64,000 bases of DNA from Variovorax sp. 54 (GTDB taxonomy: Bacteria; Pseudomonadota; Gammaproteobacteria; Burkholderiales; Burkholderiaceae_C), in the NCBI RefSeq assembly GCF_002754375.1, contig NZ_PEFF01000001.1:5225501-5289500 (forward strand). The letters run 5' to 3'. Shown piece by piece: positions 15,322 through 30,561 of the stretch. The notes under the pieces were generated by a model that did no database searches, had not been told where the DNA came from, and saw only the letters and a list, made by a program, of their open reading frames with translations. Positions within the stretch are counted from its first letter, which is position 1. Every line of letters begins with the position of its first letter. The position numbers and the translations under genes are program-made.

Positions 15322-16290
15322 TCACATCTTCTTGTAGGCGTCGACGACGGCCTGGCCTTCGGGGCCGGCCTTCTCGGTCCACTCCTTGATCATGGTGTCG
15401 CCGACCTTCTTCATGTCGGCCTTGAGCTGCGCCGAGGGCACATGCACCGTCATGCCATTCTTCTTGAGCAGGTCGAGGTACTCGACGTTCTTCTTCTTCG
15501 AGGTGTCCCAGCCGCGCTTCTCGGCGTCGGCCGCGGCCTTGAGCAGCGCCTGCTGCACGGGCTTGTCGAGCGCGTCGAAGGCCTTCTTGTTCATGAGCAC
15601 CGCGTTCTTCGGCAGCCAGGCCTGGGTGTCGTAGAAGTTCTTGATGTACTCGTAGGTCTTGGTGTCGTAGCCGGTGGAGCCCGAGGACATGTACGACTCG
15701 ATCACGCCCGTGGCCATGGCCTGCGACAGCTCGGCCTGCTGCACGGTGACCGGTTGCGCGCCCACGAGTTCGCCGATGCGCGCGGTGGCGGGGCTGTAGG
15801 CGCGCCACTTCACGCCCTTCAGGTCGGCGGCCGAGGCGATCTCCTTCTTCACGAAGATGCCCTGCGGCGGCCATGCCACCGCGTAGAGCAGCTGGATGCC
15901 CTGTTCGCCCAGCTTCTTCTCGAGCGCCGGCTTCTGAGCCTGGTAGAGCTTCCAGGCGGCGTCGTAGCTGTCGGCCAGGAAGGGGATGCCGTCGGCGCCG
16001 AACATCTGCCATTCGTTCTGGTAGTTCACCAGCAGGATCTCGCCGAGCTGCGCCTGGCCGCCCTGCACCGCACGCTTGATCTCGGGCGCCTTGAACAGCG
16101 ACGCGTTGGCATGCACCGTGATCTTGAGCTTGCCGCCGCTGCCCTTGTCCACATCGCTCGCGAACTGCGTGATGTTCTCCGTGTGGAAGTTGGTCGTCGG
16201 GTAGGCGGTGGGAAGGTCCCACTTGGTTTGCGCGAAGGCGGCGGCGCCGAAGGTGAGGCCCGCCAGGGCCATGCCGAACTTGTGATTCAT
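15322..16290 (-). CDS. dctP: TRAP transporter substrate-binding protein (DctP-like)
   Basis: This 322-residue secreted protein has a short signal peptide ending AAAFA before QTKWDLPTAYP. The body has DctP features, including ITVHANASLFKAPEIKRAV (residues about 55-75) and the conserved arginine region KGVKWRAYSPATARIGELVGA. The ATG at 16290 gives the signal peptide directly; longer starts add basic sequence. The solute is probably a carboxylate, as for most of this family, but cannot be specified. The gene diverges from the STN protein gene across 213 bases. Confidence 0.92.
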   Translation of the reverse strand: MNHKFGMALAGLTFGAAAFAQTKWDLPTAYPTTNFHTENITQFASDVDKGSGGKLKITVHANASLFKAPEIKRAVQGGQAQLGEILLVNYQNEWQMFGADGIPFLADSYDAAWKLYQAQKPALEKKLGEQGIQLLYAVAWPPQGIFVKKEIASAADLKGVKWRAYSPATARIGELVGAQPVTVQQAELSQAMATGVIESYMSSGSTGYDTKTYEYIKNFYDTQAWLPKNAVLMNKKAFDALDKPVQQALLKAAADAEKRGWDTSKKKNVEYLDLLKKNGMTVHVPSAQLKADMKKVGDTMIKEWTEKAGPEGQAVVDAYKKM

Positions 16291-16403: not shown

Positions 16404-16421
16404 CCGTCACCGTTCCGTCAA
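16404..16421 (+). promoter_or_regulatory. Pho-box-like direct repeat upstream of the STN/sigma/FecR operon
   Basis: CCGTCAC at 16404-16410, four bases, then CCGTCAA at 16415-16421. Each heptamer matches the PhoB half-site CTGTCAT at 5 of 7 positions, and the 11-base period equals that of a genuine Pho box. It lies 83 bases before the ATG at 16504 and about 115 bases from dctP on the other strand. PhoB control is inferred by analogy with the PUMA3 system. Confidence 0.45.
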
Positions 16422-16503
16422 ATGGCATCGATAGCATGCGCAGCGATCCGGGCCGCACCTTCGTGCGGCGAGTCGATCCGCATTGCATGAACCCCACCCG
16501 CCT

Positions 16504-17208
16504 ATGGCAACAACGGTCCCGCGCGCCGGTGCATTTGCACTGGTGCTTGGCATGACCATGGCCCTGGCGAGTCCGAGTGCGCAGGCTGCTCCACCGGCCC
16601 GCATCGACGTGCCGGCGCGGCCGGCGCCGCCGGCGCCGCGCCACGTGCGCATTCATTTCGACATTCCCGCCCAGCCGCTGCAGGCCGCGCTCGACGCCCA
16701 TGGCGCGGTGACGGGATGGTCCGCGTTCTACGGCGCCGACTCGATCGGCCATGCGCAGTCTGTCGCTGTGCAGGGCTGGTACACGCCCGACGCCGCGCTG
16801 CGCCTGCTCGTCGATGCCGCGCACCTGTCGGTGCAGTACACGGCGGCCGATGCCTTCGTTCTTGAACCCGGCGCGGCCAATGACGCCACCGCGGCCGCTG
16901 CGCCGCTGCCGCGCGACCCGGTGTACGAGGGCCTGCTCCAGTCGCGCATGCGCGAGGTGTTTTGTCGCGACGCGCGCATCGCGCCCGGCAACTACCGCGT
17001 GGCCGTGAGCTTTCATGTCGACGGCGAAGGGCGCATCGAGCGGCCGGTGCTGCTCGACCCCACCGGCGACCCGGCCCGCGACGACGCGATTCTGCAGGCC
17101 TTGCGGGAGGTTCGAACCGGCCTTGCCCCGGGCCGGCCGGCGCAGCCTTTCGTCATGTTGATCGTGCCCAAGGCTTCGGCTGCCGGCCGCGATTGCGAGC
17201 GCCTGTGA
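16504..17208 (+). CDS. STN-domain signalling protein without receptor barrel, VreA-like
   Basis: The 234-residue secreted protein starts with a signal peptide (AGAFALVLGMTMALASPSAQA). An STN (secretin/TonB short N-terminal) domain follows at about residues 45-120, with FDIPAQPLQAALDAHGAVTGW and LRLLVDAAHLSVQY. The C-terminal part, about 130-225, resembles the TonB C-terminal domain (RVAVSFHVDGEGRIERPVLL). No beta-barrel follows. In cell-surface signalling, STN domains contact the FecR-type anti-sigma, and P. aeruginosa VreA has this same barrel-less layout. ATG 16504 was chosen over TTG 16483 because it opens directly on the signal peptide. It is 40 bases before the sigma gene. Confidence 0.8.
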   Translation: MATTVPRAGAFALVLGMTMALASPSAQAAPPARIDVPARPAPPAPRHVRIHFDIPAQPLQAALDAHGAVTGWSAFYGADSIGHAQSVAVQGWYTPDAALRLLVDAAHLSVQYTAADAFVLEPGAANDATAAAAPLPRDPVYEGLLQSRMREVFCRDARIAPGNYRVAVSFHVDGEGRIERPVLLDPTGDPARDDAILQALREVRTGLAPGRPAQPFVMLIVPKASAAGRDCERL

Positions 17209-17248
17209 GTCGCGTGCGCTCGCAGGCCCTGCACATTTTCTTCAGCCC

Positions 17249-17755
17249 ATGAGCGACATCGGGCTGGGAGGGCTGCGCGACTTCATGCTGCGCCGCTATG
17301 AGGACCTGAAGCGCCGGCTGACGCTTCAGCTCGGCAACGCCGACCTGGCGGGCGATGCGCTGCAGGACACCTGGGTGCGGCTCGAGGGCGGGGCGGAAAC
17401 CAGCGGCCCCGTGCAGTACCCGCTGAGCTACCTGATGCGGATGGCGACCAACGCGGCGCTCGACCGCCTGCGGTCCGAGAGCCGCTTTCTCAATGGCACC
17501 GAGGTCGAGCAGGTGTTCGAGAGCCTCTCCGATCCCGCGCCTGGCCCCGCGCAAACGGCCGAGGCGCGCTCCGAAGCCCAGCGGCTGGCGGCCGTGATCG
17601 ACGAGATGCCGCCGCGTCGGCGCCACATCCTGATCCTGATCCGGGTCGATGAGATGCCCCGCCAGGAAGTCGCGCGACGCCTGGGCGTGTCGGTGAGCCT
17701 GGTCGACCGCGAACTGCGGCGCGCGCACGACCACGTGGTGGAGCGCATGCGATGA
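17249..17755 (+). CDS. ECF RNA polymerase sigma factor, FecI/VreI-like
   Basis: The 168-residue protein has sigma region 2 at about residues 10-75 (DALQDTWVRLEG, MRMATNAALDRLRSE) and region 4 at about 105-165 (IDEMPPRRRHILILIRVDEMPRQEVARRLGVS). That is the FecI-type ECF pattern, with no extra domains. It is flanked by an STN protein and a FecR protein, as in iron-type cell-surface signalling. The likely target is the giant exoprotein gene downstream, although no promoter could be assigned with confidence. The TGA at 17753-17755 overlaps the ATG of a small ORF. Confidence 0.9.
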   Translation: MSDIGLGGLRDFMLRRYEDLKRRLTLQLGNADLAGDALQDTWVRLEGGAETSGPVQYPLSYLMRMATNAALDRLRSESRFLNGTEVEQVFESLSDPAPGPAQTAEARSEAQRLAAVIDEMPPRRRHILILIRVDEMPRQEVARRLGVSVSLVDRELRRAHDHVVERMR

Positions 17756-17886
17756 AACACGTGAAGAGCGCCCGGTGTGCAGGAATGGTGGTCGAGAACC
17801 GTCTGATGAAGATGTGCTGCTTTTGCTGCTGCGTGATTGTGTTGTCGTCGATGTCCCGGTCCCGGAGCGGCCCGTTGTGTCGATGA
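17752..17886 (+). CDS. Small Cys-rich ORF coupled between sigma factor and FecR genes (44 residues)
   Basis: A 44-codon frame begins with an ATG that overlaps the sigma TGA (ATGA) and ends with a TGA that overlaps the FecR ATG (again ATGA). The peptide has a basic start (MKHVKSARC), a hydrophobic Cys-rich centre (MKMCCFCCCVIVLSS) and a basic end. The exact four-base overlap at both ends suggests it is translated, at least to carry ribosomes from sigma to anti-sigma. It could be a small membrane peptide or only a coupling device. No homologue is recognised. Confidence 0.45.
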   Translation: MKHVKSARCAGMVVENRLMKMCCFCCCVIVLSSMSRSRSGPLCR

Positions 17887-18893
17887 CCGCGCCGCACCAC
17901 CCGGGCCCGCAGCAGCAACGGCAGGCCCCCGATGCACTCGACGCGCAGGCGCAGGCCTGGGTGCGTCGCCTGGCGTCGGGCGCCGCGCGGCCGCGCGATG
18001 CGCGTGCGCTGAAACACTGGTGCGGCCTCAGCGAAGCTCACGCACAGGCGTTCCAGAAGGCGCACCGGCAGTGGCGCGAGCTGCTGTCCGCCGCGGCCCT
18101 GGCTGGCCATGCCGACCCCGAACTCGCGCGTTTGCGCGCCCCGGGCAACACGGCGGCCCGGCCGTTGCCGCGACGCATGTTCCTTGGCGGTGCCGTGGCG
18201 GCGTCGGTGGCGGTCGTCGGCGTGGCGCTCGTGCGGCCGCCCCTGGGCCTGTGGCCTTCGGTGCAGGCGCTGCAGGCGGACTTTCGCACGGGTGTCGGCG
18301 AGCAGCGCAAGCTCGCGCTGACGCCCTCGGTCACCGTCGAGATGAACACGCGCAGCAGCCTCGGCGTGCGCGCGGCCAATGGCCAGCCGCAGGGCATCGA
18401 CCTCGTCGATGGCGAGGTGTCGGTCGATGCCTCGCGCGCGGCGCAGCCCTTCACCGTGATGGCCGGTGACGGCCGTGTGTCGGCGACGGATGCGCGCTTC
18501 GAGGTGCGGCGCCTGGCCGAAGGCACCTGCGTCACGTGCATCGAAGGCCAGGTCCGCGTGGCCATTGGCGGCAGCGAGGTCGCGCTGATGCCGTCGCAGC
18601 AAGTGGTGTACGACCGGCTTGCCCTGGGGCCGGTGCGACGGATCGACGCGGCCGAACTGTCGCCGTGGCGCGAAGGCATCCTGAGCTTTCGCAAGACCGC
18701 GCTGACGCAGGTGGTGGCCGAGATCAACCGCTACCGGCCGGGCCGCGTGGTGCTGTTGGCCCGCGCGCTGGGCGACAGGCCGGTGAGCGGCAGGTTTCAC
18801 ATCGGCGATCTGGACAAGGCCATTGCGCAGATCCAGAGGTTGTTCCGGCTCGATGCCACCGCGTTGCCGGGTGCGATCGTGCTGTTGAGCTGA
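17883..18893 (+). CDS. FecR-family sigma factor regulator, VreR-like
   Basis: The 336-residue inner-membrane regulator has an N-terminal cytoplasmic anti-sigma region (DUF4880-like, AQAWVRRLASG to HAQAFQKAHRQW, about residues 17-55). One membrane segment follows at about 97-115, then the periplasmic FecR domain at about 125-225 (VDGEVSVDAS, FTVMAGDGRVSATDARFEV). The C-terminal domain is STN-like (LSFRKTALTQVVAEINRY). Twin arginines, RRMFLGGAVAAS, precede the membrane segment, as expected for Tat-type insertion. It should bind the STN protein in the periplasm and control the sigma factor. ATG 17883 is preferred to upstream GTG codons because it is coupled to the small ORF stop. Confidence 0.88.
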   Translation: MTAPHHPGPQQQRQAPDALDAQAQAWVRRLASGAARPRDARALKHWCGLSEAHAQAFQKAHRQWRELLSAAALAGHADPELARLRAPGNTAARPLPRRMFLGGAVAASVAVVGVALVRPPLGLWPSVQALQADFRTGVGEQRKLALTPSVTVEMNTRSSLGVRAANGQPQGIDLVDGEVSVDASRAAQPFTVMAGDGRVSATDARFEVRRLAEGTCVTCIEGQVRVAIGGSEVALMPSQQVVYDRLALGPVRRIDAAELSPWREGILSFRKTALTQVVAEINRYRPGRVVLLARALGDRPVSGRFHIGDLDKAIAQIQRLFRLDATALPGAIVLLS

Positions 18894-19104
18894 TTCGGGC
18901 TTGCGCTTGGGGGGACGCCGGGATCGGGCGACTGCGCGTTGCCGCGTGAAGCCCTCCGGAGCGAGCGGGTTCCTTCGCGCAGATTCCGCAGATTTCCGTA
19001 CAGCTTTCGAGGCCGGCATCCGTCTAAGGCAGAGCGACCGGGCGCACGTGCGTCGGTCGTCGCCTCCTGTCGCACGCCCGAACCGCCATCGAAAGAAATC
19101 TGTC

Positions 19105-22100
19105 ATGTCGACCCTGCATCCTGCCCCGATGAAGCCAGCATCCACCCGCCGTGCGCGGGCGGCGCACGCCTTGCGCAACGATGCCGACAGGTGGCGCCTC
19201 AGGCCACTGGCGCGTGCGCTGGCGGTGATGCTGGCGGCCGGCGGCGCAATGGACGGCGCGCCGGCGCAGCAGGCCCTCGGCGCGGCCTGGTTCGGTGCCA
19301 AGAACGTGGTGCAGAACTCGGCCCTGGCCACCGGCCGGCTGCCCAACGGCATGCCTGCGTCGAGCCTCACCCAGCCGATGGGCTCGCAGCAGCGCGACAG
19401 CGCGCAGGCGCAGCGCTCGATCGACAACCTCAACCTCGCGGCCCGCGGCATCGCGGCGCAGCAGGCGGCCCAGGAAGCCGCGCGGCTGGCGGCCCTCGGC
19501 GGTGCTGCGGGTATTCCGGAAGGGCTTGCCGATGGCGGCCTGAAGGTCGACACCCACAGCCTGACGGCCGGCTGGCTCAACGCGAAGGCGCCGGTGCAGG
19601 CGGCGACCGGTGGCCGCACGGTGGTGGGCATCGAACAGACCGCCGACAAGGCGATCCTGAACTGGGAGAGTTTCAACGTGGGCAAGAACACCACGGTGCA
19701 GTTCGACCAGAAGGGCGGCGCGAAGCCGGACGGCACCAACGGGTGGATCGCGTTGAACCGCATCAACGACCCGAGCGGCAGGCCCAGCCAGATCGCGGGG
19801 CAGATCAAGGCCGACGGCGCGGTGTACCTGGTCAACCGCAACGGCATCGTCTTCACCGGCAGCAGCCAGGTGAACACGCGCACGCTGGTGGCGTCGAGCC
19901 TGGCGCTGTCGGACAAGCAGTTCAACCTGGGCATCAACAACCCGCAGTTGATGTCGAACCTGGGCAACGACTTCGCCATTCCGCAGTTCGGCGAGTTCAC
20001 GGACATGAAGCCATCCGTGTATGGCGCAGCCGGCTATGTGCCGGGCAACGGCACCACGCCGGACCAACTGGGCAAGGTGGATCGCTTCGTTCCCGGCGCG
20101 CCGCCCGGCGAGGTGAAGGTGGCGGCGGGTGCGCAACTGGGCGTGGCCAGCGGCGGCAAGATCATGCTGTTCGCTCCCAAGGTGAACAACGCCGGCCGCC
20201 TTTCCGCGCCCGATGGGCAGGTGATTCTTGCCGCCGGTGAAAACGTCTACCTGAACGCGAGCCGGCCGGACAGCCCGATGGGTGTTCGCGGCCTGGACGT
20301 GGCCGCATCGGCCGTGCCGGGCTGGGCCTTCCAGGGCGGCCACATAGTGAAAGCGCTGGGCCTGGAGCAGGCCAATGCCGACGTGCAGTTCGTTGCCGGC
20401 CTGCGCGACGTGGTCATGCCGGAAATGCTCGCGCGGGCCAAGGCGGTGGGCTACGAGGTGGTCAACAGCGGCATGGTGCAATCCGACCGCGGCAACATCA
20501 CCCTGCAGGCGCGGGACGTGCGCCAGAACGGCGTGCTGCTGTCCAACACGGCGCTGAACAACCGCAGCGGTTCCATTCTGTTGCGCGCCTGGAGCCAGGG
20601 CACCCACTACTACTCTGCCGACAACAACGATCTGCTCAACTGGGCCGCCGGCACGCTGACGTTGGGTGAGGGCAGCGTGACGCAGATTCTTCCGGACACC
20701 ACGGACAGGAGCGAGATCGAAGCGAGCGCGCTGGCCACGCGCTACCAGCCGGGCCGCGTGGGCCTGTACGGACAGTTGATCGACATCAAGCCACGCGCCG
20801 GCGTGCTGGTGCCTTCCGGTGCGATCAACCTGGAGTCGGCGGTCAACCCGGTGTTCACGCAGCAAGCCTGGCGCAAGCCCGGCAGCCTGGGCGACGCAAG
20901 CCGCATCTACATCGACGGCGGCGCTTTCCTGAGCGTGGCGGGGCTGCGCGACATCCGCGTGGACATGGCGCGCAACTTCATCGAGGCCGACATGCGCATC
21001 AACGAGTTGCGCGATTCACCGCTGCAGCTCGATTCGTGGCTGCGCGGCAAGAAGCTCGTGGTCGATCGGCGCGTCAGCGGTGTGTTCGCGCAGGGCCCGA
21101 TGGCCGGCGTGAAGTGGGTCGAGCGCAAGGGCGCCGACGGCCAGATGGCCTACATGCCCGGCGAGTGGGTGGGCACGCCGCTGGCCGACGTGGCCGGCTG
21201 GGTCGGCGTCGGCAAGACCGACCTGAGCGAACTGTCGGCCAATGCCGGCGCGATCACGCTGCGCGCGGGCGGCTCCGTCATCACGCGCGCGGGCTCGGTG
21301 CTCGACGTCTCGGGCGGCTCGGTGCGCTACACCGACGGCATGAATACCGCGACCAAGCTGATGGGCGCGGATGGCCGTGTGTACGCGATGCACAAGGCCA
21401 TGCCCGACATGGCCTACGTCGGCATCGCCGGCGAGTTCACGAGCGAGCACAAGCGCTGGGGCGTCAAGGATTCGTGGCGCCATCCGCTGATCGGCGGCGA
21501 CCGGCTGGAAGCCGGCTACACCGAAGGGCGCAAGGCCGGCAGCGTGCAGGTTTTCGCGGGCGATGCGATGGTGCTCGAAGGCGATTTCCTGGGCGAGGCG
21601 GTCGTCGGTGAACGGCAGCAGAAGAATCCGACGCGGGGCACCGGCGGACGGCTGGAGCTGGGCGGCGGCAGCACGGAAGACCGGCCGTGGTCGCCGGGCA
21701 CCATCGTTGTCAGCCACGCCCCCAAGCGACTGGCCGAGGGCTTCAATGCGGGCACGGCGCTGGCGGATGATTTCTATGTGCCGCTCGACCCGGACCCGGC
21801 GCTGCGCAAGTCCCGCAAGCTGAGCTTCCTGTCGGACGACATGCTCAGCCGCTCGGGCATGGGCGAGATCGTCTTCAACATCATCCGCGGCGACTTCGAA
21901 CTCGCGCAGGGTGCGAGCCTCCAGCTGTCGCCCGGCGCGTCGCTGCGCGTTTCCGGGAGCGACGGTTCGACCGGCAACATCCGTGTCGACGGATCGATCC
22001 GCGCGGCCGGCGGTTCCATCGCGCTCGATGCGTTCAACGGCCGGTTGCAGCTGGGGGCGGGCGCCCGCCTCGACACGAGCGGCCAGTGGATCAACACCTG

Positions 22101-25100
22101 GCGCGACGGCGGAATGCCTGCGGCATGGGCCATGGACGGCGGCGCCATCAGCCTGAGCGTGAGCGACATCCAGGCGCACGCGGATTCGGTGCTCGACGTC
22201 TCCGGCGGAGGCCGCGTCGACACGGGCAAGAACGGGTTGCCGTCGATGCGCGTGGGCGATGCCGGTTCGGTGAAGCTGATCGGCATCACGCCCAAGACCG
22301 ACCTGGCCTCGCTGAACCTGCGTGCCCATGCGGCCGGCTCGGCGGGCAGCCTTTTTCTGGAGAGCGCCTCGTCGGTACAGATCGGCGGCGCGGCCATCGA
22401 CCCGGCCACCGTGCTGCTGCCGGCGTCGCTGTTCGGCGAGCGTGGTTTCGGCAAGGTGTCCGTGTCGGTGCGTGGCGAGGGTGGCATCGTGGTGCCCGAA
22501 GGTGTGGAAGTGGCACCGCGCGCATCGAGCCTCGACCTGAGCTCCTTCGCGTGGCGCGAAGTGGCCACCGGCGAGCGACTGGCCGACCTGGCGCCTGTGG
22601 CCGTGTTGCGTCCCGAAGAGCGCGCGGCGCGCCGGCCCGCATCGCTGTCGCTGGGCACGTTGGGAGGGCTGATTCATGTCGAGCGCGGCGCGGTGGTGCG
22701 CACCGACACCGGCGGCACGCTGTCGCTCAACTCGGACGGGGAAGCAGGTAAGGTGCTGGTGAGCGGCCGGCTCGACGCGCCGGCGGGCCGCATCGAGCTG
22801 GCAGCGGCGGACGTGGTGCTCGAGCGGGGCGGCGAGCTGCTGGCGCGCGGCGTGCCGCTGATCCATCGCGACGCCAAGGGGCGCCGTACCGGAGAGGTGC
22901 GCGACGGCGGCACGGTGGATGTGCGCGGCGTGAACCTGTCGCTCGAACGCGGCTCGCTGATCGACGTGTCGGGCGCCACCGGCGACATCGACGGCGTGCC
23001 TGCGAGTCCGTGGGGCCCGAAGACCGCGCAGGCGGTCACGCTCGACAGCAACGGCGGCCTGATCCGCATCAGCGGCAAGGGCCTGGTCGAAGGCACGCTC
23101 ACCGGCAAGGCCGGCGGGCCGGGGGCCATCGGCGGACGCATCCGCTTCGACATGTCGGCACCGACGCCCGCGGGCGGCTCGCCGCTGGAGCAGTTGAAGC
23201 AGGTGCTGAAGGGGCTGGACCCGGATTGCAACGGTCTGCCCGGCAACGGCGTCTGCGACAACAGCGACTGGAAGGAAGCGCTGGACATCGACTGGGGCCC
23301 GGCCATCGGCGCACCCCCGGGCACGCCGGTGGTCATTCCTTCGTCGCTGGTCGCGCACCTGGACGACATCAAGGAGCTGGTGCTGTCGGACACGATGGCC
23401 GTGCCGGCGCCCGGAACGGTGCCGCTCGATCCGGCCCGCTTCGGCCTGACGCCGGAAGTGCTCGACCTGTTCCGCGACAACGTGTTCTCTTCGGACCTGC
23501 TGCGCGACCTGCTTCAGAAGCCCGGCCAGCGTCATGCACTGACCGTTCGCCCGCAGGCCTTCAAGGAGGGCGGCTTCTCCGAGCTGGCGCTCGTCAATTC
23601 GTCGCGAGGCGCGATCCGGCTGGACGACGCGCAGATTTCCGCGGGCCGCTCCATCCGGCTGCAGGGCAGCATCGTCGGGCATGCGGGCACCAGCTCGGTC
23701 TTGCAGGCGCCGCACATCGTGCTGACGGCGCTTCCGGGCACGTCGCTGCCGCCGTCTGCAAGTGCCACCGCCGGCAACGCTGCCGGCCAGTTGTTGTTGA
23801 GCGGCTCGCTCATTGACGTCGAGACCGATCCCGAGACCAACGTCGCATCGGCAGGCAGCGTGCGCATCGCGGGCTTCGGCCGCACGGTGATGCAGGCGGA
23901 CCAGATCCGCCTGGGCGGCGCGTTGCCGGTGCAGATCAACCCGGACACGAAGCTGCAGGTCAACCTGGACGTCGACGGCCAACTGGTGCTGAAGGCCGGC
24001 CAGGTTTCTCCCACCACGGCCATGACCGCCGTGGTGCGCGCGGGCGATGCGATCACTGTCGAGCGCCTGGGCGATGCAGGCGCGCCGACGCCGCTTTCCG
24101 CAGGCGGCACGCTGCGGCTGGAGGCGCCGGTGATCGCGCAGAACGGCGTGCTGCACGCACCGCTGGGCCAGATCGAATTGAATGCGGGCGAACGCTTGAC
24201 GCTGGGCACCGGCAGCCTGACGTCGGTGTCGGGTGCAGGCGTGACGGTGCCCTACGGCACGCTGTCCAACAACGAACATTGGCTCGACCCGGCCAAGGCC
24301 GGCGACGGCAGCGGTCTGTCGTCGGGGTCGCTCACCGCGCCGCCGGAAAAGCGGATCACGATGAAGTCGCCCAGCGTCGACCTGGCCAAGGGCGCCGTGG
24401 TCGATATTGCCGGCGGCGGCGATCTGTCTGCATGGGAGTTCGTGCCCGGCCCCGGCGGCTCGCACGATGTGCTGGCGATGCCCGGCATGTACGCCATCCT
24501 CCCCGGCCCGCAGGCCGCGGCGCCGGCAGGCGGCGCGAATGCCGGCCAACGCGTCTGGCTGGCGGGCGGACCGGGCCTGGCGGCAGGCTGGTATGCGCTG
24601 CTGCCCGCGCGCTACGCCTTGCTGCCGGGGGCCTTCGCCGTGCAGGCCACCGGTGCACCCTGGGCTGGCACAGCCACCGCCGCATCGGCGGCGACCGGCC
24701 CCGACGGCAGCCTCGTCATGCAGGGCAGGGGCGGCAACAGCCTGGACAACGCGAGGGACGCGATGCCTTCGACCTGGCGCGTGATGTCGGGCAACACGCT
24801 GCGCCGCTACACCCAGTACAACGAGGCATTCGCCAACGACTTCTTCTCGTCGGAGGCCTTCAAGCTCACGCAGTACCGCCAGACCGGGAAGAACATCGTC
24901 ACGCCGCGCCTGCCGCGCGACGGCGGCGCGGTCGTCTTCGATGCCGGCCAGCGGCTGACGCTCGGCGGCACCTTGCGCTCGGCGCCCGACGTGGGCGGGC
25001 GCGGTGGGCTGGTCGACATTGCGGGCAAGAAGATCGCCATCGTCGGCGCCGGCCATGATGCGGCCGGCCTCCAGGCCGACGGCTACCTGGTCATCGACGC

Positions 25101-28100
25101 GCAGGGGCTCGCCAACTTCGGCGCCGGCAGCCTGCTGGTGGGCGGCAAGCGCAAGGGCGATCCGCTGGGCCTGAGTCTGGACGTGACGGCCACCGACATC
25201 GTCGTGCGCAACGACGCGGGCTCCGAGCTGTTCGGGCCCGAGATCATCCTGGCGGCCAGCGAGCAGGTTGCCATCGAAGGCGGCAGCGTGGTCCGCGCAC
25301 GGGGCGCCGGCAGCCTGGGCGCCGGCAGCCTGGTCATGAAGCCTCGCGTTGCGGCGGTCTACAAGGACCCGGACGGCATCCTGGACGACAACCGCGACGG
25401 CGTGATCGATGCCATCGATGCCGCCGACGACGTTCTCATCGCGCCTTCGAAGGATTGGGGCGCGCTGGTTCGCGTGGCCAACGGCGATGCGGTCCGGGTC
25501 GTGCGCGAGAACGTGGACACCACGCGCGGACTGGTCCGCATCGGGGCCGATGCATTCGTCGGCGGCGGCGCGGCCCTGCTGATCGACGCCACCCGCACGA
25601 CGGAGCTCGCGGGCTCGGCGCAGATATCGGGCACCGACATCTCGGTCGCCGCGGGACGCATCGGCTTCGGTGGCGGCACCGAAGGCATGGTGCTCAACGC
25701 GGCCTCGCTGGCCCAGCTGGCCCACTCGCAGCGCCTGACCTTGCGCAGCTACTCCAGCCTGGACTTCTACAACTCGCTCGACCTGGGCGCGGCCGGCCTG
25801 GCCGCACTGACCTTCGACGGCGCGGTGTTCACAGGGCAGGGCGACGTGCGCATCCAGGGCGAGGCCATCTCGCTCATCAACAGCGGCGGGTACGTGGCTG
25901 CACCACCGCCGGCGGGCAGCGGCGGTGGCAGTGGCAGTGGCAGTGGCAGCTTCACGCTCGACGCCGGCACGCTGGTGCTGGGCGCGGGCCAGAAGCGCTT
26001 CGAAGGCTTCGGTGCCGTGGTGCTGGGCGGCCGGAACCGGATCGTCGGCGAGGGCGCGGGCGGCATCGACGCCGGCAGCGCCGCACTCACGCTGCAGACG
26101 CCGCTGCTCACGGGCCGCAACGGCGCGGCGCAGTCCATCGTGACCCGCGGTGCGCTGCAGGTCGTTGCGCTGCCGGCCAGCGATGCGGGTGCGCAGAACA
26201 ACCTGCAGGACAGCCTGGGTTCGCGCCTGTCCCTGAGCGGCGGCAACATCCGCTTCGGCGGCCGCGCGGCAGCCCTCGGCGGCAGCATCGACATGACGGC
26301 CACGGCGGGGCATCTGGTCCTGACGGAAGGCGCGCAAGTCGACGTCGGCGGTTTCGCCAAGCAGTTCTTCGATGTGGCCGAATTCGCCGACGCGGGGCGC
26401 ATCCACCTGTCCGCCGTGGGCGGCGATGTCCGGCTGGGTGCGGGAAGCCGTCTGAACCTGGCGGCCCACAAGGACGGCGGCAACGCAGGCACCTTGAGCC
26501 TTGCCGCCGCGAACGGCGGCACCGTGGTGCTCGACGGCGCCATTGCGGCGCAGGCCGGCGCGGGCGGCAATGCCGGCAGCTTTGCGCTCGACATCGAGGC
26601 CTTGCCCGATTTCGCCGGCTTCAGCCAGCGCCTGAACGACGCGGGCCTCAATCGCTCGCGGCAGTTCCGCATCCGCCAGGGCGACGTGGTGCTCGGCGGC
26701 AGCACCCTGGTCGAAGACTTCGGCCTCACCGCCGACCGGGGCCGTGTCGACATCACCGGCGTCGTCGATGCGCGCTCTGCGTACGGCGGTGCGATTCGCA
26801 TCACCGGCGGCAACGGCGTGGCGATGCGGCCGGGCGCGCAACTGCTGGCGGGCGCCACCGGCGAGCTGGGCAGCGGCCGTGTGACGCTCGAAGCGGCCGG
26901 CGGCACGCTGAACCTGCAGGGCGGCTCGATCGACGTGTCCGGCAACGAAGGCGGCAAGGTGCGCTTGCGCGCGCGGCAGACAGCGGGTCACGACGAGATC
27001 GAGGTCTCCGCGCTCCAGGCGGCCATTCATGGCGCCCGGTCGGCGGTGCTCGAAGGCGTCAGCAGCTACGACCTGGCCGACTACGACGGCCGCACGGTCG
27101 AATCGGTCAAGGCCGATGCCATGGCCCACGCCCACCGGTTTGCCGGCGCGTCGGGCGCGGTGGCCAACCGCCTGGGCACCGGCCTGGCCGTGATGCCCGG
27201 CATCGACATCCGCAGCGCCGGCGACATCGCGCTGAACAGCGACTGGAACCTGTTCACCGATTTCGCAGGCGCGCGCGAAGGCTCGCTGACCCTGCGTGCC
27301 GGCGGCAACCTGCGGGTCAACGGCCACCTGAGCGACGGCTTCGATGCGGCGGACCGCACAGGCCGGTTGCAGCAAGGTGCGTCGTGGAACCTGCGGCTCG
27401 TCGCGGGCGCCGACCTGACGTCGGCCCACACGCTGGCGCTCAAGCCCTTGGCGGCGCAAGGCGCGGGAAGCGGCTCGGTCATCGTCGGCACGGCCAACAC
27501 GGCGGTCCCCAGCGAGGACGACCCCAAGCCCGACAACGGCGCGGGCAAGCTGATCCGCACCGGCACCGGCGACCTGGAAGTTCGCGCGGGCCGCAATCTG
27601 ACGCTGGCGCACAAGGCATCGGTGATCTACACGGCGGGCCGCAAGGACACCACCACGTGGAGCGACTTCAGCACCGCCAACCCGAACGCCAGCTACGGCA
27701 TCGAGGGCGGCAACCTGGACATCGCCGCGCAGGGCAGCATCGAGGCACAGCCTTCGGGCCAGCGGTTCACCGAGTGGCTCAACCGCCAGGGCAACCTCAA
27801 CTTCGACCGCTACTTCGGCGCGTACGAGACCAACGAGCGCCTGCCCCCGCCCGAGAGCGGCTATGTGCTGATGCCGCCCGAGCAATCGAGCTGGTGGATC
27901 AACTACGGCGCCTTCCAGCAGGGTGTGGGTGCACTGGGCGGCGGCAACGTCAAGGTGAACGCCGGCGGCGACCTGACCAACCTCGTCGTCGCACTGCCGA
28001 CCCACATGCGCATGCGCGGCGGCAGAACCGGCACTGAGGCGATGACCATGGAAGTGCGCAACGGCGGCGCCATGGAGGTCGACGCCGTGGGCGCCATTCG

Positions 28101-30561
28101 CGGCGGCCAGTACTACGTGGCGCGCGGCCACGGCGACCTGCGCGCCGGCGAGACGACCATCGGCCATCAGGTGACGGTGTGGCGCAACAAGGGCGAGCCG
28201 GACCAGAGCGTCACCGTGCTGCCCGTCGCGCCGTTGCTGGCCGTGGGCGACGCGACGCTGCGGCTGCGCACCGCCGGCGACCTGGTGTTGCAGACGGTGA
28301 TCGATCCGCTGATGGTGCGCTATGGCGACGACGGCACCGGCTCCCATCCCAGGACCGACTACGGCGCCTATATGAGCGGCTACACCGACCGCACCGCCGT
28401 GCGGCTGGTCTCCACCGGCGGCAACATCACGCTGGTCAACCAGGCCGAGTTTCTGTTCCGCGATGTGTCGCTGCGTTCGAGCGGCGAGAGAGACAACAAC
28501 CTGAACGGCCACGGCGGCAACCTCTACCCGGCGCGCACGCAGGCCGCGGCGCTGAATGGCGGGCTGGAAATCCAGGGGCCGATGTTCGTCATGCCCGGCA
28601 AGACGACGGACCTGCGGCTGATTGCCGGCAGCGACGTGCGCTTCAACACGCGCAACTACACGGTGGTCGACGAAACCACGCGCAGCGAGCCGTTCGCCGG
28701 CATCTTCATGGCGCGTGCGACGCCCGCGATGATTCCCTCGCCCTCCATGCCGGCCGGTGGCGACGGGTTCCCGTTCCAGGTGAACATGCCTTCGCTGCTG
28801 GAGAACCGGGCCAGCGGCGCGTTGCCCGCGTTCCCGTACACCCTCGGCAACCCCGATGTGCTGGCGCTGGTGAATGACCTGGTGCCGAGCCGTATCTACG
28901 CGGCCGGGGGCTCGATCCTCGGGCTCGACATGACGGCCAGCGAGCAGCTCTGGCTGCGTGCGGGCCGCGACATCCGCGGCATGCGGCTCGATGCGCGCAA
29001 CCTGCGCGCGAGCGACGTGACGCTGCTCGAGGCCGGCAACGACATCCTCGCGGTGTCGCCGGTGCGGGCGATATGGAATGCCCCCGAAGTGGGGGTGATC
29101 ACGGTGCAGGGGCCCGGCTCGCTCGTGCTGTCCGCGGGGCGCGATGTCTATGCGGACCGGCTGAAGATCCAGACCCTGGGCAACCAGGAGTACGACGCCA
29201 ACAACCGACCGGTCGACAGGACGCAGATCCATGGGTTGCCCGAGCGCGGCGCCGCGATCACCGTGATGGCGGGCGTGAACCAGGCGCCGAGCTACGAAGC
29301 GTTCGAGAGCGCCTACCTGGACCCGGCGCGTGTGGCGTCGATGCCCGATCACCTGAAGGCTGCGGGCGCCGATGGGCGCGTGCTGCCGATCTACCTCAGC
29401 GACCTGCTCGAAACACGTGACGGCCGCGAGAAGAACGTGCGTCGCGGCCTGGTGTCGTACATGAAGGACATGACCGGCGAGACGCTGGCGCCGCTCGATG
29501 CATGGACGCGCTTCCAGGCGCTGCCGCAGTTTGCCCGGCAGCAGTTCCTGCGGCAGGTCTACCTGCTGGAACTGCGCGAAGCCGGGCGCGACCAGGGCGA
29601 GCCGGGCAGCGGCGGCCTGCCGCGCAACGGCGGCTACAACCGCGGCTACGCGGCCATCGAAACCCTGTTCCCCGGCGACGGCTGGAAGGGCGACGTGGCG
29701 GCCAACGCGATGATGCTGCGCACCATGGCGGGCGGTGACATCAACGTGCTGACACCCGGCGGCGGGCTGCAGGTGGCGGCACTGGGCGCGAGCGTGCCGG
29801 CCGGCTACGGCCTGGTGACGCTGGCCTCGGGCCACATCAACGTGTTTGCCAGGAACGACGTGACCGTGAACCAGTCGCGCATTCTTTCCTTCGTGCCGGA
29901 AGCGACGCGCGAAGGCAGCGACCAGATCATCTGGTCAAGCAAGGGCGACATCGATGCGGGGCGCGGCTCGAAGACTGTGCGGGTGCCTTCGGCGCCCGAG
30001 GTGCTGACCGACCTGGACGGCAACACCATCGTGCGCGAGAAGTCCGACATGAGCGGCAGCGGCATCGGCACCGTGGGCGATGGCGACGTCGACCTCGTGG
30101 CGCCGCGCGGAACGGTCAACGCCGGCGATGCGGGCCTGCGCGTGGCGGGCAACCTGAACATCGCGGCGCTGCAGGTGCTGAACGCCGACAACATCCAGGT
30201 GAAGGGCGAGACCAAGGGGCTGCCGGTGATTGCGTCGGTGAACATTGGCGCGCTGACGAACGCCAGCGCGGCGGCTTCGCAGGCCGCGTCCGCGGCGCAG
30301 GACGTGATGCAGCGCGAACGCGCGGCCCAGCGCCAGGCCTTGCCGTCGGTCTTCAGCGTGCGCGTGCTTGGCTTCGGCAATGAGCCGTTGCCCGCGGAGC
30401 GCACGGGCGGTGCTGGCGCGGCCACCGAGCCCGCCGGCGCTGTGCAGCGCAGCGCGCGTTACGACCCCGACAGCGCCTTCCAGGTGCTGGGGCAGGGTGC
30501 CCTGAGCCCGGCCCAGCGCGCGCGATTGACCGAGGCGGAGCAGCGTCGGTTGCCGAAGTGA
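19105..30561 (+). CDS. Giant filamentous haemagglutinin-family exoprotein (TpsA, DUF3739 type)
   Basis: The predicted protein has about 3818 residues. A long N-terminal export signal ends near residue 50. The TPS secretion domain spans about 145-370 (NWESFNVGKNTTVQFDQ, VYLVNRNGIVFTGSSQVNTRTL). A long beta-helix of Gly/Asp/Ala-rich repeats follows (LDVSGG, LRAGG). A Gly-Ser linker is at 2271-2282. The C-terminus has the DUF3739 pattern (GDVDLVAPRGTVNAGDAGLRVAG). Two Ca-loop-like motifs are seen: DPDCNG at about 1372 and DDNRDGVIDAID at 2094-2105. The only cysteines noticed are two near 1375-1384. ATG 19105 excludes 68 basic upstream residues with no family resemblance. It is probably an adhesin or secreted virulence/contact factor, by analogy with PdtA. 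No TpsB gene is nearby. Confidence 0.88.
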   Translation: MSTLHPAPMKPASTRRARAAHALRNDADRWRLRPLARALAVMLAAGGAMDGAPAQQALGAAWFGAKNVVQNSALATGRLPNGMPASSLTQPMGSQQRDSAQAQRSIDNLNLAARGIAAQQAAQEAARLAALGGAAGIPEGLADGGLKVDTHSLTAGWLNAKAPVQAATGGRTVVGIEQTADKAILNWESFNVGKNTTVQFDQKGGAKPDGTNGWIALNRINDPSGRPSQIAGQIKADGAVYLVNRNGIVFTGSSQVNTRTLVASSLALSDKQFNLGINNPQLMSNLGNDFAIPQFGEFTDMKPSVYGAAGYVPGNGTTPDQLGKVDRFVPGAPPGEVKVAAGAQLGVASGGKIMLFAPKVNNAGRLSAPDGQVILAAGENVYLNASRPDSPMGVRGLDVAASAVPGWAFQGGHIVKALGLEQANADVQFVAGLRDVVMPEMLARAKAVGYEVVNSGMVQSDRGNITLQARDVRQNGVLLSNTALNNRSGSILLRAWSQGTHYYSADNNDLLNWAAGTLTLGEGSVTQILPDTTDRSEIEASALATRYQPGRVGLYGQLIDIKPRAGVLVPSGAINLESAVNPVFTQQAWRKPGSLGDASRIYIDGGAFLSVAGLRDIRVDMARNFIEADMRINELRDSPLQLDSWLRGKKLVVDRRVSGVFAQGPMAGVKWVERKGADGQMAYMPGEWVGTPLADVAGWVGVGKTDLSELSANAGAITLRAGGSVITRAGSVLDVSGGSVRYTDGMNTATKLMGADGRVYAMHKAMPDMAYVGIAGEFTSEHKRWGVKDSWRHPLIGGDRLEAGYTEGRKAGSVQVFAGDAMVLEGDFLGEAVVGERQQKNPTRGTGGRLELGGGSTEDRPWSPGTIVVSHAPKRLAEGFNAGTALADDFYVPLDPDPALRKSRKLSFLSDDMLSRSGMGEIVFNIIRGDFELAQGASLQLSPGASLRVSGSDGSTGNIRVDGSIRAAGGSIALDAFNGRLQLGAGARLDTSGQWINTWRDGGMPAAWAMDGGAISLSVSDIQAHADSVLDVSGGGRVDTGKNGLPSMRVGDAGSVKLIGITPKTDLASLNLRAHAAGSAGSLFLESASSVQIGGAAIDPATVLLPASLFGERGFGKVSVSVRGEGGIVVPEGVEVAPRASSLDLSSFAWREVATGERLADLAPVAVLRPEERAARRPASLSLGTLGGLIHVERGAVVRTDTGGTLSLNSDGEAGKVLVSGRLDAPAGRIELAAADVVLERGGELLARGVPLIHRDAKGRRTGEVRDGGTVDVRGVNLSLERGSLIDVSGATGDIDGVPASPWGPKTAQAVTLDSNGGLIRISGKGLVEGTLTGKAGGPGAIGGRIRFDMSAPTPAGGSPLEQLKQVLKGLDPDCNGLPGNGVCDNSDWKEALDIDWGPAIGAPPGTPVVIPSSLVAHLDDIKELVLSDTMAVPAPGTVPLDPARFGLTPEVLDLFRDNVFSSDLLRDLLQKPGQRHALTVRPQAFKEGGFSELALVNSSRGAIRLDDAQISAGRSIRLQGSIVGHAGTSSVLQAPHIVLTALPGTSLPPSASATAGNAAGQLLLSGSLIDVETDPETNVASAGSVRIAGFGRTVMQADQIRLGGALPVQINPDTKLQVNLDVDGQLVLKAGQVSPTTAMTAVVRAGDAITVERLGDAGAPTPLSAGGTLRLEAPVIAQNGVLHAPLGQIELNAGERLTLGTGSLTSVSGAGVTVPYGTLSNNEHWLDPAKAGDGSGLSSGSLTAPPEKRITMKSPSVDLAKGAVVDIAGGGDLSAWEFVPGPGGSHDVLAMPGMYAILPGPQAAAPAGGANAGQRVWLAGGPGLAAGWYALLPARYALLPGAFAVQATGAPWAGTATAASAATGPDGSLVMQGRGGNSLDNARDAMPSTWRVMSGNTLRRYTQYNEAFANDFFSSEAFKLTQYRQTGKNIVTPRLPRDGGAVVFDAGQRLTLGGTLRSAPDVGGRGGLVDIAGKKIAIVGAGHDAAGLQADGYLVIDAQGLANFGAGSLLVGGKRKGDPLGLSLDVTATDIVVRNDAGSELFGPEIILAASEQVAIEGGSVVRARGAGSLGAGSLVMKPRVAAVYKDPDGILDDNRDGVIDAIDAADDVLIAPSKDWGALVRVANGDAVRVVRENVDTTRGLVRIGADAFVGGGAALLIDATRTTELAGSAQISGTDISVAAGRIGFGGGTEGMVLNAASLAQLAHSQRLTLRSYSSLDFYNSLDLGAAGLAALTFDGAVFTGQGDVRIQGEAISLINSGGYVAAPPPAGSGGGSGSGSGSFTLDAGTLVLGAGQKRFEGFGAVVLGGRNRIVGEGAGGIDAGSAALTLQTPLLTGRNGAAQSIVTRGALQVVALPASDAGAQNNLQDSLGSRLSLSGGNIRFGGRAAALGGSIDMTATAGHLVLTEGAQVDVGGFAKQFFDVAEFADAGRIHLSAVGGDVRLGAGSRLNLAAHKDGGNAGTLSLAAANGGTVVLDGAIAAQAGAGGNAGSFALDIEALPDFAGFSQRLNDAGLNRSRQFRIRQGDVVLGGSTLVEDFGLTADRGRVDITGVVDARSAYGGAIRITGGNGVAMRPGAQLLAGATGELGSGRVTLEAAGGTLNLQGGSIDVSGNEGGKVRLRARQTAGHDEIEVSALQAAIHGARSAVLEGVSSYDLADYDGRTVESVKADAMAHAHRFAGASGAVANRLGTGLAVMPGIDIRSAGDIALNSDWNLFTDFAGAREGSLTLRAGGNLRVNGHLSDGFDAADRTGRLQQGASWNLRLVAGADLTSAHTLALKPLAAQGAGSGSVIVGTANTAVPSEDDPKPDNGAGKLIRTGTGDLEVRAGRNLTLAHKASVIYTAGRKDTTTWSDFSTANPNASYGIEGGNLDIAAQGSIEAQPSGQRFTEWLNRQGNLNFDRYFGAYETNERLPPPESGYVLMPPEQSSWWINYGAFQQGVGALGGGNVKVNAGGDLTNLVVALPTHMRMRGGRTGTEAMTMEVRNGGAMEVDAVGAIRGGQYYVARGHGDLRAGETTIGHQVTVWRNKGEPDQSVTVLPVAPLLAVGDATLRLRTAGDLVLQTVIDPLMVRYGDDGTGSHPRTDYGAYMSGYTDRTAVRLVSTGGNITLVNQAEFLFRDVSLRSSGERDNNLNGHGGNLYPARTQAAALNGGLEIQGPMFVMPGKTTDLRLIAGSDVRFNTRNYTVVDETTRSEPFAGIFMARATPAMIPSPSMPAGGDGFPFQVNMPSLLENRASGALPAFPYTLGNPDVLALVNDLVPSRIYAAGGSILGLDMTASEQLWLRAGRDIRGMRLDARNLRASDVTLLEAGNDILAVSPVRAIWNAPEVGVITVQGPGSLVLSAGRDVYADRLKIQTLGNQEYDANNRPVDRTQIHGLPERGAAITVMAGVNQAPSYEAFESAYLDPARVASMPDHLKAAGADGRVLPIYLSDLLETRDGREKNVRRGLVSYMKDMTGETLAPLDAWTRFQALPQFARQQFLRQVYLLELREAGRDQGEPGSGGLPRNGGYNRGYAAIETLFPGDGWKGDVAANAMMLRTMAGGDINVLTPGGGLQVAALGASVPAGYGLVTLASGHINVFARNDVTVNQSRILSFVPEATREGSDQIIWSSKGDIDAGRGSKTVRVPSAPEVLTDLDGNTIVREKSDMSGSGIGTVGDGDVDLVAPRGTVNAGDAGLRVAGNLNIAALQVLNADNIQVKGETKGLPVIASVNIGALTNASAAASQAASAAQDVMQRERAAQRQALPSVFSVRVLGFGNEPLPAERTGGAGAATEPAGAVQRSARYDPDSAFQVLGQGALSPAQRARLTEAEQRRLPK
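25915..25950 (+). repeat. Tandem 6-base Gly-Ser codon repeat inside the exoprotein gene
   Basis: Six units of GGCAGT or close variants (two GGCAGC, one GGCGGT) encode GSGGGSGSGSGS after a proline-rich PPPAG segment. Because the unit is two codons long, gain or loss would change linker length without a frameshift. Confidence 0.8.

Follow-up and report, generated by a model that had tools for sequence, protein, structure and literature searches.

The closest described system is PUMA3 of Pseudomonas aeruginosa (Llamas 2009; Quesada 2016; Otero-Asman 2020), which we follow here through passages of four papers (PMC2729926, Llamas 2009; PMC4971064; PMC7035377; PMC5422565). In the passages of Llamas 2009 (PMC2729926), VreA is a two-domain protein that joins an STN domain to a second domain, and PUMA3 clusters are listed for Pseudomonas, Burkholderia vietnamiensis, R. 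palustris, and Janthinobacterium, with tpsA genes accompanying those of B. vietnamiensis and Janthinobacterium. The same passages give Janthinobacterium and R. palustris four copies each, with a tpsA behind three of them and tpsB-exbBD behind the fourth. P. aeruginosa pdtA has a PhoB-type site before it in the passages concerning that gene.

We identify a module in Variovorax sp. 54 that is of the PUMA3 (VreA-VreI-VreR) kind by domains, predicted fold, and gene order. In the window, the whole 64,000-nt stretch of DNA analysed, it occupies 16404-30561 of the + strand and comprises a vreA-like gene (16504-17208), a vreI-like ECF sigma factor gene (17249-17755), a vreR-like gene for a FecR-type anti-sigma factor of 336 aa (17883-18893), and a giant tpsA exoprotein gene (19105-30561). 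These genes, their order, and their single strand had been named by an earlier reading of the sequence alone, which also called the locus PUMA3-like, and all are present as listed. Its FecR-type regulator and ECF sigma factor have clear domains (DUF4880 and FecR in the former; Sigma70_r2/r4_2 in Pfam, sigma70-ECF in NCBIfam, and the tree described below for the latter), and its exoprotein of roughly 3818 residues has 3818 aa, with DUF3739 (PF12545) and the N-proximal TPS domain (PF05860 and TIGR01901) that characterizes a type Vb TpsA. The start at 16404 that the sequence-only reading gave the first gene was mistaken: a PhoB-box-like repeat opens at this base, and vreA begins at 16504, a start picked by likeness to homologues in a frame open from 16483. 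The vreR-like frame is open from 17775. Burkholderia and Janthinobacterium are already in the list of Llamas 2009 (PMC2729926), so a betaproteobacterial counterpart is not new and does not broaden the distribution as that reading had supposed.

The likeness to P. aeruginosa PUMA3 and its PdtA-PdtB pair covers a barrel-less protein with STN and TolA/TonB-like domains, an ECF sigma factor, a FecR-type anti-sigma factor, a giant TpsA, a TpsB accompanied by ExbB, ExbD, and a TonB homologue, and a PhoB-type site before vreA. The two differ in layout, since here tpsA directly follows vreR and the tpsB hub is remote, with no tpsB adjoining this tpsA; in number, with five modules for one hub; and in a predicted sigma promoter before vreR. 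By Pfam, the module's neighbours are DctP, DctQ, and DctM upstream and HHH, LapB-type, LapA, HU/IHF-type, and S1-repeat proteins downstream, all on the - strand.

The first protein, with a signal peptide recognized by eye, has the two-domain layout of the VreA type. Its Pfam scores of 21.2 bits for STN and 19.9 bits for TonB_2 lie just below the curated cut-offs of 28.4 and 22, and NCBIfam tonB_Cterm reaches 27.2 bits, just over its cut-off of 27.1. In an AlphaFold2 model built on 28 sequences (mean pLDDT 82.7, pTM 0.59), Foldseek matches the first half to the STN signalling domains of FpvA and FecA (E 1e-5 to 4e-4) and PupA (1.2e-3), and the second half, more weakly, to the C-terminal domains of HasB, TolA, and TonB (E 0.005 to 0.1). 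The alignment of 28 sequences keeps one cysteine throughout and a second almost throughout, and the window VreA shares 90% identity with a protein from Variovorax sp. PAMC26660. The sequence-only reading had proposed a barrel-less STN protein of the VreA type and had set a VreA-type domain match as its test; that match is found, albeit at Pfam scores just below cut-off, and the STN and TonB-like domains and the fold matches agree with the proposal. Pairwise BLAST of the window VreA against the TonB-like protein of the hub gives no match; a VreA profile reaches that protein at E 1.4e-8 in a one-genome search.

Upstream of vreA, at 16404-16425 on the + strand, lies the PhoB-box-like tandem repeat CCGTCAC.CGTT.CCGTCAA.ATGG, whose GTCA-N7-GTCA motif predicts binding of PhoB. 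It is the sole copy on both strands of the 64 kb, where 1.34 would be expected by chance, and its weight therefore rests on position and conservation. Among 36 fetched modules, 22 carry the motif in the 360 nt upstream of vreA, and 14 other periods from 5 to 19 give 0-3; all module DNA, 1164 kb of strand, holds 29 copies, whereas the vreA upstreams, which add up to 13 kb, hold 22. The 11-bp repeat precedes vreA in all eight tree members of the clade to which the window module belongs, and it is present in all 13 pstS upstreams scanned (out of 19 matches from 12 genomes). Across 53 named loci it stands before vreA in 11, with 0-2 at other periods, one locus (L041) having been scanned in the wrong upstream window. 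It is absent from the other 14 modules and 42 named loci. Phosphate control as in the VreAIR kind, which the sequence-only reading had brought in from P. aeruginosa, is thus suggested by a conserved repeat before vreA. A strict E. coli-type PhoB consensus, searched before the period test in ~250-nt upstreams of five modules, gave p ~0.04 for one (M1) and 0.1-0.4 for the other four, with 0.11 for the window module; we rejected this search as unconvincing.

Neither a GTCA nor a GTGA 11-bp repeat was found before the window tpsA, in contrast to pdtA. GTGA-N7-GTGA occurs in 8 of 30 tpsA upstreams (G000_M3, G000_M4, G157a, G151a, G151c, G157e, G165d, and G105a), where it is possibly a variant PhoB box 5' of the sigma-type promoter. 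Beside vreA in three modules of the genus stand PstS-like genes (G133:C2:2870-3682; G135:C12:701316-703037; G126:C144:17966-18310) that match TIGR00975 weakly, below cut-off, a second link to phosphate. In the window, a gene for a DctP-family substrate-binding protein (15322-16290, - strand) diverges from vreA and shares a 213-bp upstream region with it, so the PhoB-like repeat could act on this gene too.

Two candidate sigma-type promoters, both CAG-N17-CGTCT, are the only copies of this pattern on the + strand of the window: one for vreR at 17780-17804, and one for tpsA at 19001-19025 (GTACAG...CGTCTAAG). The vreR candidate has a counterpart at the same junction in five of the seven clade members examined, and the tpsA site is exact in three of six, with TAG for CAG in a fourth (L034). 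The pattern also stands before 14 of 16 hubs, including the hub of this genome, and at the clade's tpsA, vreI-vreR junction, and hub sites spacers other than N17 give at most 1; L039 was left out of the clade and hub comparison. Because the pattern was defined after the clade sequences had been seen and does not exceed chance (4 copies in the window against 3.29 expected; 12 on both strands across 219 kb of this genome, the highest count among the spacers tried, which give 2-12), the argument rests on position and conservation. Sigma-dependent control of the exoprotein, which the sequence-only reading had deduced from position, thus gains a promoter motif in its favour, and we infer that the sigma factor pairs with the promoters of tpsA and vreR.

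A more general two-block model (AAAAATAGTTGCGG, a gap of mostly 14-16, then TTCGTC.TgG) was learned only on 30 tpsA upstreams, which leave out G126a, G126b, G133a, G120a, G120c, and G133b, the last having no tpsA in its stretch. Applied to the 36 vreI-vreR junctions, it brings 21 to the 99th percentile (8.4) of 2043 control windows, a count owed in part to the A-rich half of the model, a half that overlaps the stop codon of vreI; 15 score above every control window. Without that half, 11 of 36 still attain this percentile, with a single one above all controls. Nine usable sigma-FecR junctions elsewhere in this genome, from 11 loci (L019 has no sigma gene in reach, L020 no FecR match), score from -4.1 to 5.2, below 8.4. 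The general model fails at 15 of 36 modules in all, among them M3 and M5 of this genome; it gives the window's own junction only 0.5 and does not single out hub promoters.

The genome as a whole encodes five DUF3739 exoproteins, each behind its own vreA-vreI-vreR set, and two TpsB genes (PF03865), one beside its own TpsA-like protein of 1799 aa and the other in a tpsB-exbB-exbD-tonB hub at 834 kb, 4.4 Mb from the window by coordinate. We infer that the window exoprotein is secreted through the TpsB of this remote hub, which consists of TpsB, a DUF2341-LamG-ExbB protein, ExbD, a TonB-like protein without a Pfam match, and then Porin_5, an unassigned protein, a PPIC isomerase, and a YbjN-like protein. 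The hub ExbB (L028:8188-9990) carries its DUF2341 and laminin-G-like domain N-terminally, ahead of the proton-channel part. Across 61 genomes of the genus, this one included, VreA (E up to 1e-30), DUF3739, and DUF2341 occur in the same 11, with one DUF2341 per genome against 1-6 copies of VreA, and TpsB adjoins the DUF2341 gene in all 11; TpsB genes of any kind are widespread, occurring in 57 of the 61. Copy numbers of VreA and DUF3739, from 1 to 6, are equal in 10 of the 11 genomes, and the eleventh, a fragmented assembly, gives 4 rows against 5, two of the 5 overlapping. As these genomes are related, such counts are not independent. In another place of this genome, directly behind the first module's tpsA, lies an extra ECF-sigma-like gene by Pfam (G000:C1:692585-693142, - strand); a small protein beside it (692294-692524) looks, on visual comparison, like one encoded near the hub (836795-837052).

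The order vreA-vreI-vreR holds in all 36 fetched modules, which leave out the VreA copies G126:C111 and G126:C287, and a TpsA start follows in 34. Sigma proteins are on average 94% identical in 8 chosen orthologue pairs and 45% identical in 43 within-genome paralogue pairs, and the TPS-domain start is 72% identical between the same paralogues. The identity and Mantel tests drew on 29 of the 36 modules. Mantel correlations of 0.37-0.42 between TpsA and the regulators, against 0.90-0.93 among the regulators themselves, leave strict co-evolution of regulator and exoprotein unsupported, and we set that idea aside.

Beyond the genus, a family survey of 120 genomes, each of another genus, found at least 2 with matches spanning both VreA domains. 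Two short peptide patterns, run once against named genomes, gave 83 relatives; we kept 80, and 53 of these encode a full-length VreA by our criteria, among them beta-, alpha-, and gammaproteobacteria. In 45 of the 53 loci vreA, vreI, and vreR lie in order on one strand, and in 37 a TpsA start follows. The eight without the full order are two loci that end too early and six sphingomonads with another arrangement (L075, L078, L079, L083, L086, and L097), in which any sigma and anti-sigma genes that could be found occupy the strand opposite a full-length vreA. The eight ordered loci without a TpsA start include three that end soon after vreR (L041, L045, and L072); in L035, L060, L071, L073, and L102 no TpsA start was detected after vreAIR though downstream DNA was covered. 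The vreAIR set of L060, from Pseudomonas palmensis, matches the same profiles as the window proteins.

Gene content, predicted folds, gene order, copy numbers, co-occurrence, and conserved motifs are what we observe. From them we propose, with somewhat better than even confidence, a PUMA3-type signalling module that is gated by phosphate and whose sigma factor drives tpsA, vreR, and probably the hub. At low phosphate, active PhoB would turn on vreA-vreI, with vreR expressed by read-through, and VreR would hold the sigma factor until a second signal arrives at the envelope, perhaps through VreA. The freed sigma factor would then transcribe the adjacent giant exoprotein gene from tpsA's own promoter and, through a second promoter where vreI meets vreR, the gene for its anti-sigma factor, a built-in brake; it would probably also transcribe the remote tpsB-exbB-exbD-tonB hub needed to secrete the exoprotein. 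Feedback through the vreR promoter and the envelope signal are thus presumed parts of the scheme. The role of VreA would be its weakest link, because in the passages of the PUMA3 papers deletion of vreA in P. aeruginosa changed neither sigma factor or regulon activity nor virulence. In the open-licence literature we found no report of such promoter wiring, with sigma sites before tpsA, vreR, and the hub.

Other readings of the locus deserve weight. An ordinary iron-type FecI-FecR pair beside a TpsA, with the STN protein as the remnant of a broken TonB-dependent receptor, would account for sigma and FecR domains of the FecI and FecR families and for a genome with 16 FecR matches, of which 11 do not belong to the five modules. 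FecA-FecI-FecR shares the sigma/anti-sigma pair and the STN signalling domain with this locus. We nevertheless consider this reading very improbable: the STN protein carries a TonB-like second domain of its own, invariant or near-invariant cysteines, and matching folds; the order with vreI-vreR recurs well beyond this genome in the modules and named loci above; no TonB-dependent receptor is encoded among the eight neighbours scanned, three upstream and five downstream; and no Fur box was found in the window at up to 3 mismatches, a weak test in GC-rich DNA. The module differs from the Fec system in lacking a linked outer-membrane receptor, in having an exoprotein as target, and in a site of phosphate rather than iron type. 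At the level of individual promoters, tpsA might have none of its own and be read through from vreR, the motif at 19001 being a chance match, as the single strand and the chance-level motif count would allow. This is unlikely, as the site is kept in Variovorax, in Herbaspirillum, and, with one base changed, in Herminiimonas, and Variovorax boronicumulans Xaverov 112 keeps it despite an insertion of ~7.5 kb of unrelated genes between vreR and tpsA (L033:12233-19768). The DNA immediately 5' of the tpsA start codon is conserved in V. boronicumulans too. We take the inserted genes to include a ChrA-like transporter and an AbiE-like pair. Even less probable, in our estimate, is that the small ORF spanning the junction promoter candidate (17752-17886, + strand, 44 codons) encodes a real small protein that modulates the pathway, although it has ATGA overlaps at both ends and frames begin at the same place in some relatives. 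The peptides vary in length and sequence apart from the stretch after the promoter-like DNA, and a number of modules have no such frame; the frame noted by the sequence-only reading exists, but it is probably promoter and leader DNA rather than a conserved protein.

Which module owns the hub is a closer question. A tree of the three regulators, built from 32 of the 36 modules (G126a, G126b, G133a, and G120c not included) and a hand-picked 25 of the 53 named loci, groups the window module with L033, G120a, L034, and L036 (support 1.0); three Cupriavidus loci join next (0.92), and all seven other members of this clade have hub genes upstream. As the window module groups with hub-linked vreAIR sets of other genera, it may be the hub's displaced regulator, and this sets it apart from Janthinobacterium and R. 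palustris, which likewise have multi-copy clusters, tpsA-linked ones plus one linked to tpsB-exbBD in the passages of Llamas 2009: in Variovorax sp. 54 the relative of hub-linked modules sits at a distance from the hub. The fuller version, in which one TpsB-ExbBD-TonB hub serves five giant exoproteins, each with its own self-limiting sigma/anti-sigma channel, and the displaced master module's sigma factor drives the hub, is a tentative proposal that we hold as possible rather than likely. The contrary reading, that other sigma factors serve the hub and the window module controls only its own exoprotein, has a substantial chance, though short of an even one. Of the 11 genus genomes, nine have the CAG-N17-CGTCT promoter before their hub but no tree-placed module in the window clade, and hub-adjoining modules also occur in other clades (L064, L038 with a weaker flag, and several genus modules by position); drive of the hub in trans by the window sigma factor is therefore put forward conditionally. 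Against that contrary reading stand the clade's uniform link to the hub and the agreement of hub and window promoters in spacing and half-sites.

Our proposal of a phosphate-gated, sigma-driven module may bear on P. aeruginosa, the organism of the experimental PUMA3 papers that we found. In their passages, VreR is missing after markerless deletion of vreI, a loss that the authors ascribe to polarity, and VreI supplied in trans to this deletion gave VreR-less rather than wild-type activity. A junction promoter overlapping the end of vreI offers a possible second reading of the VreR loss; since VreI in trans failed to restore wild-type activity, this argues against sigma-dependent vreR there, and the second reading fits only if the deletion also removed the junction promoter. 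The promoter sites described here are concrete predictions. Two questions become testable in environmental relatives, where up to six modules run in parallel with a single common secretion hub: how giant exoproteins share one outer-membrane transporter, and how parallel sigma/anti-sigma channels remain separate.
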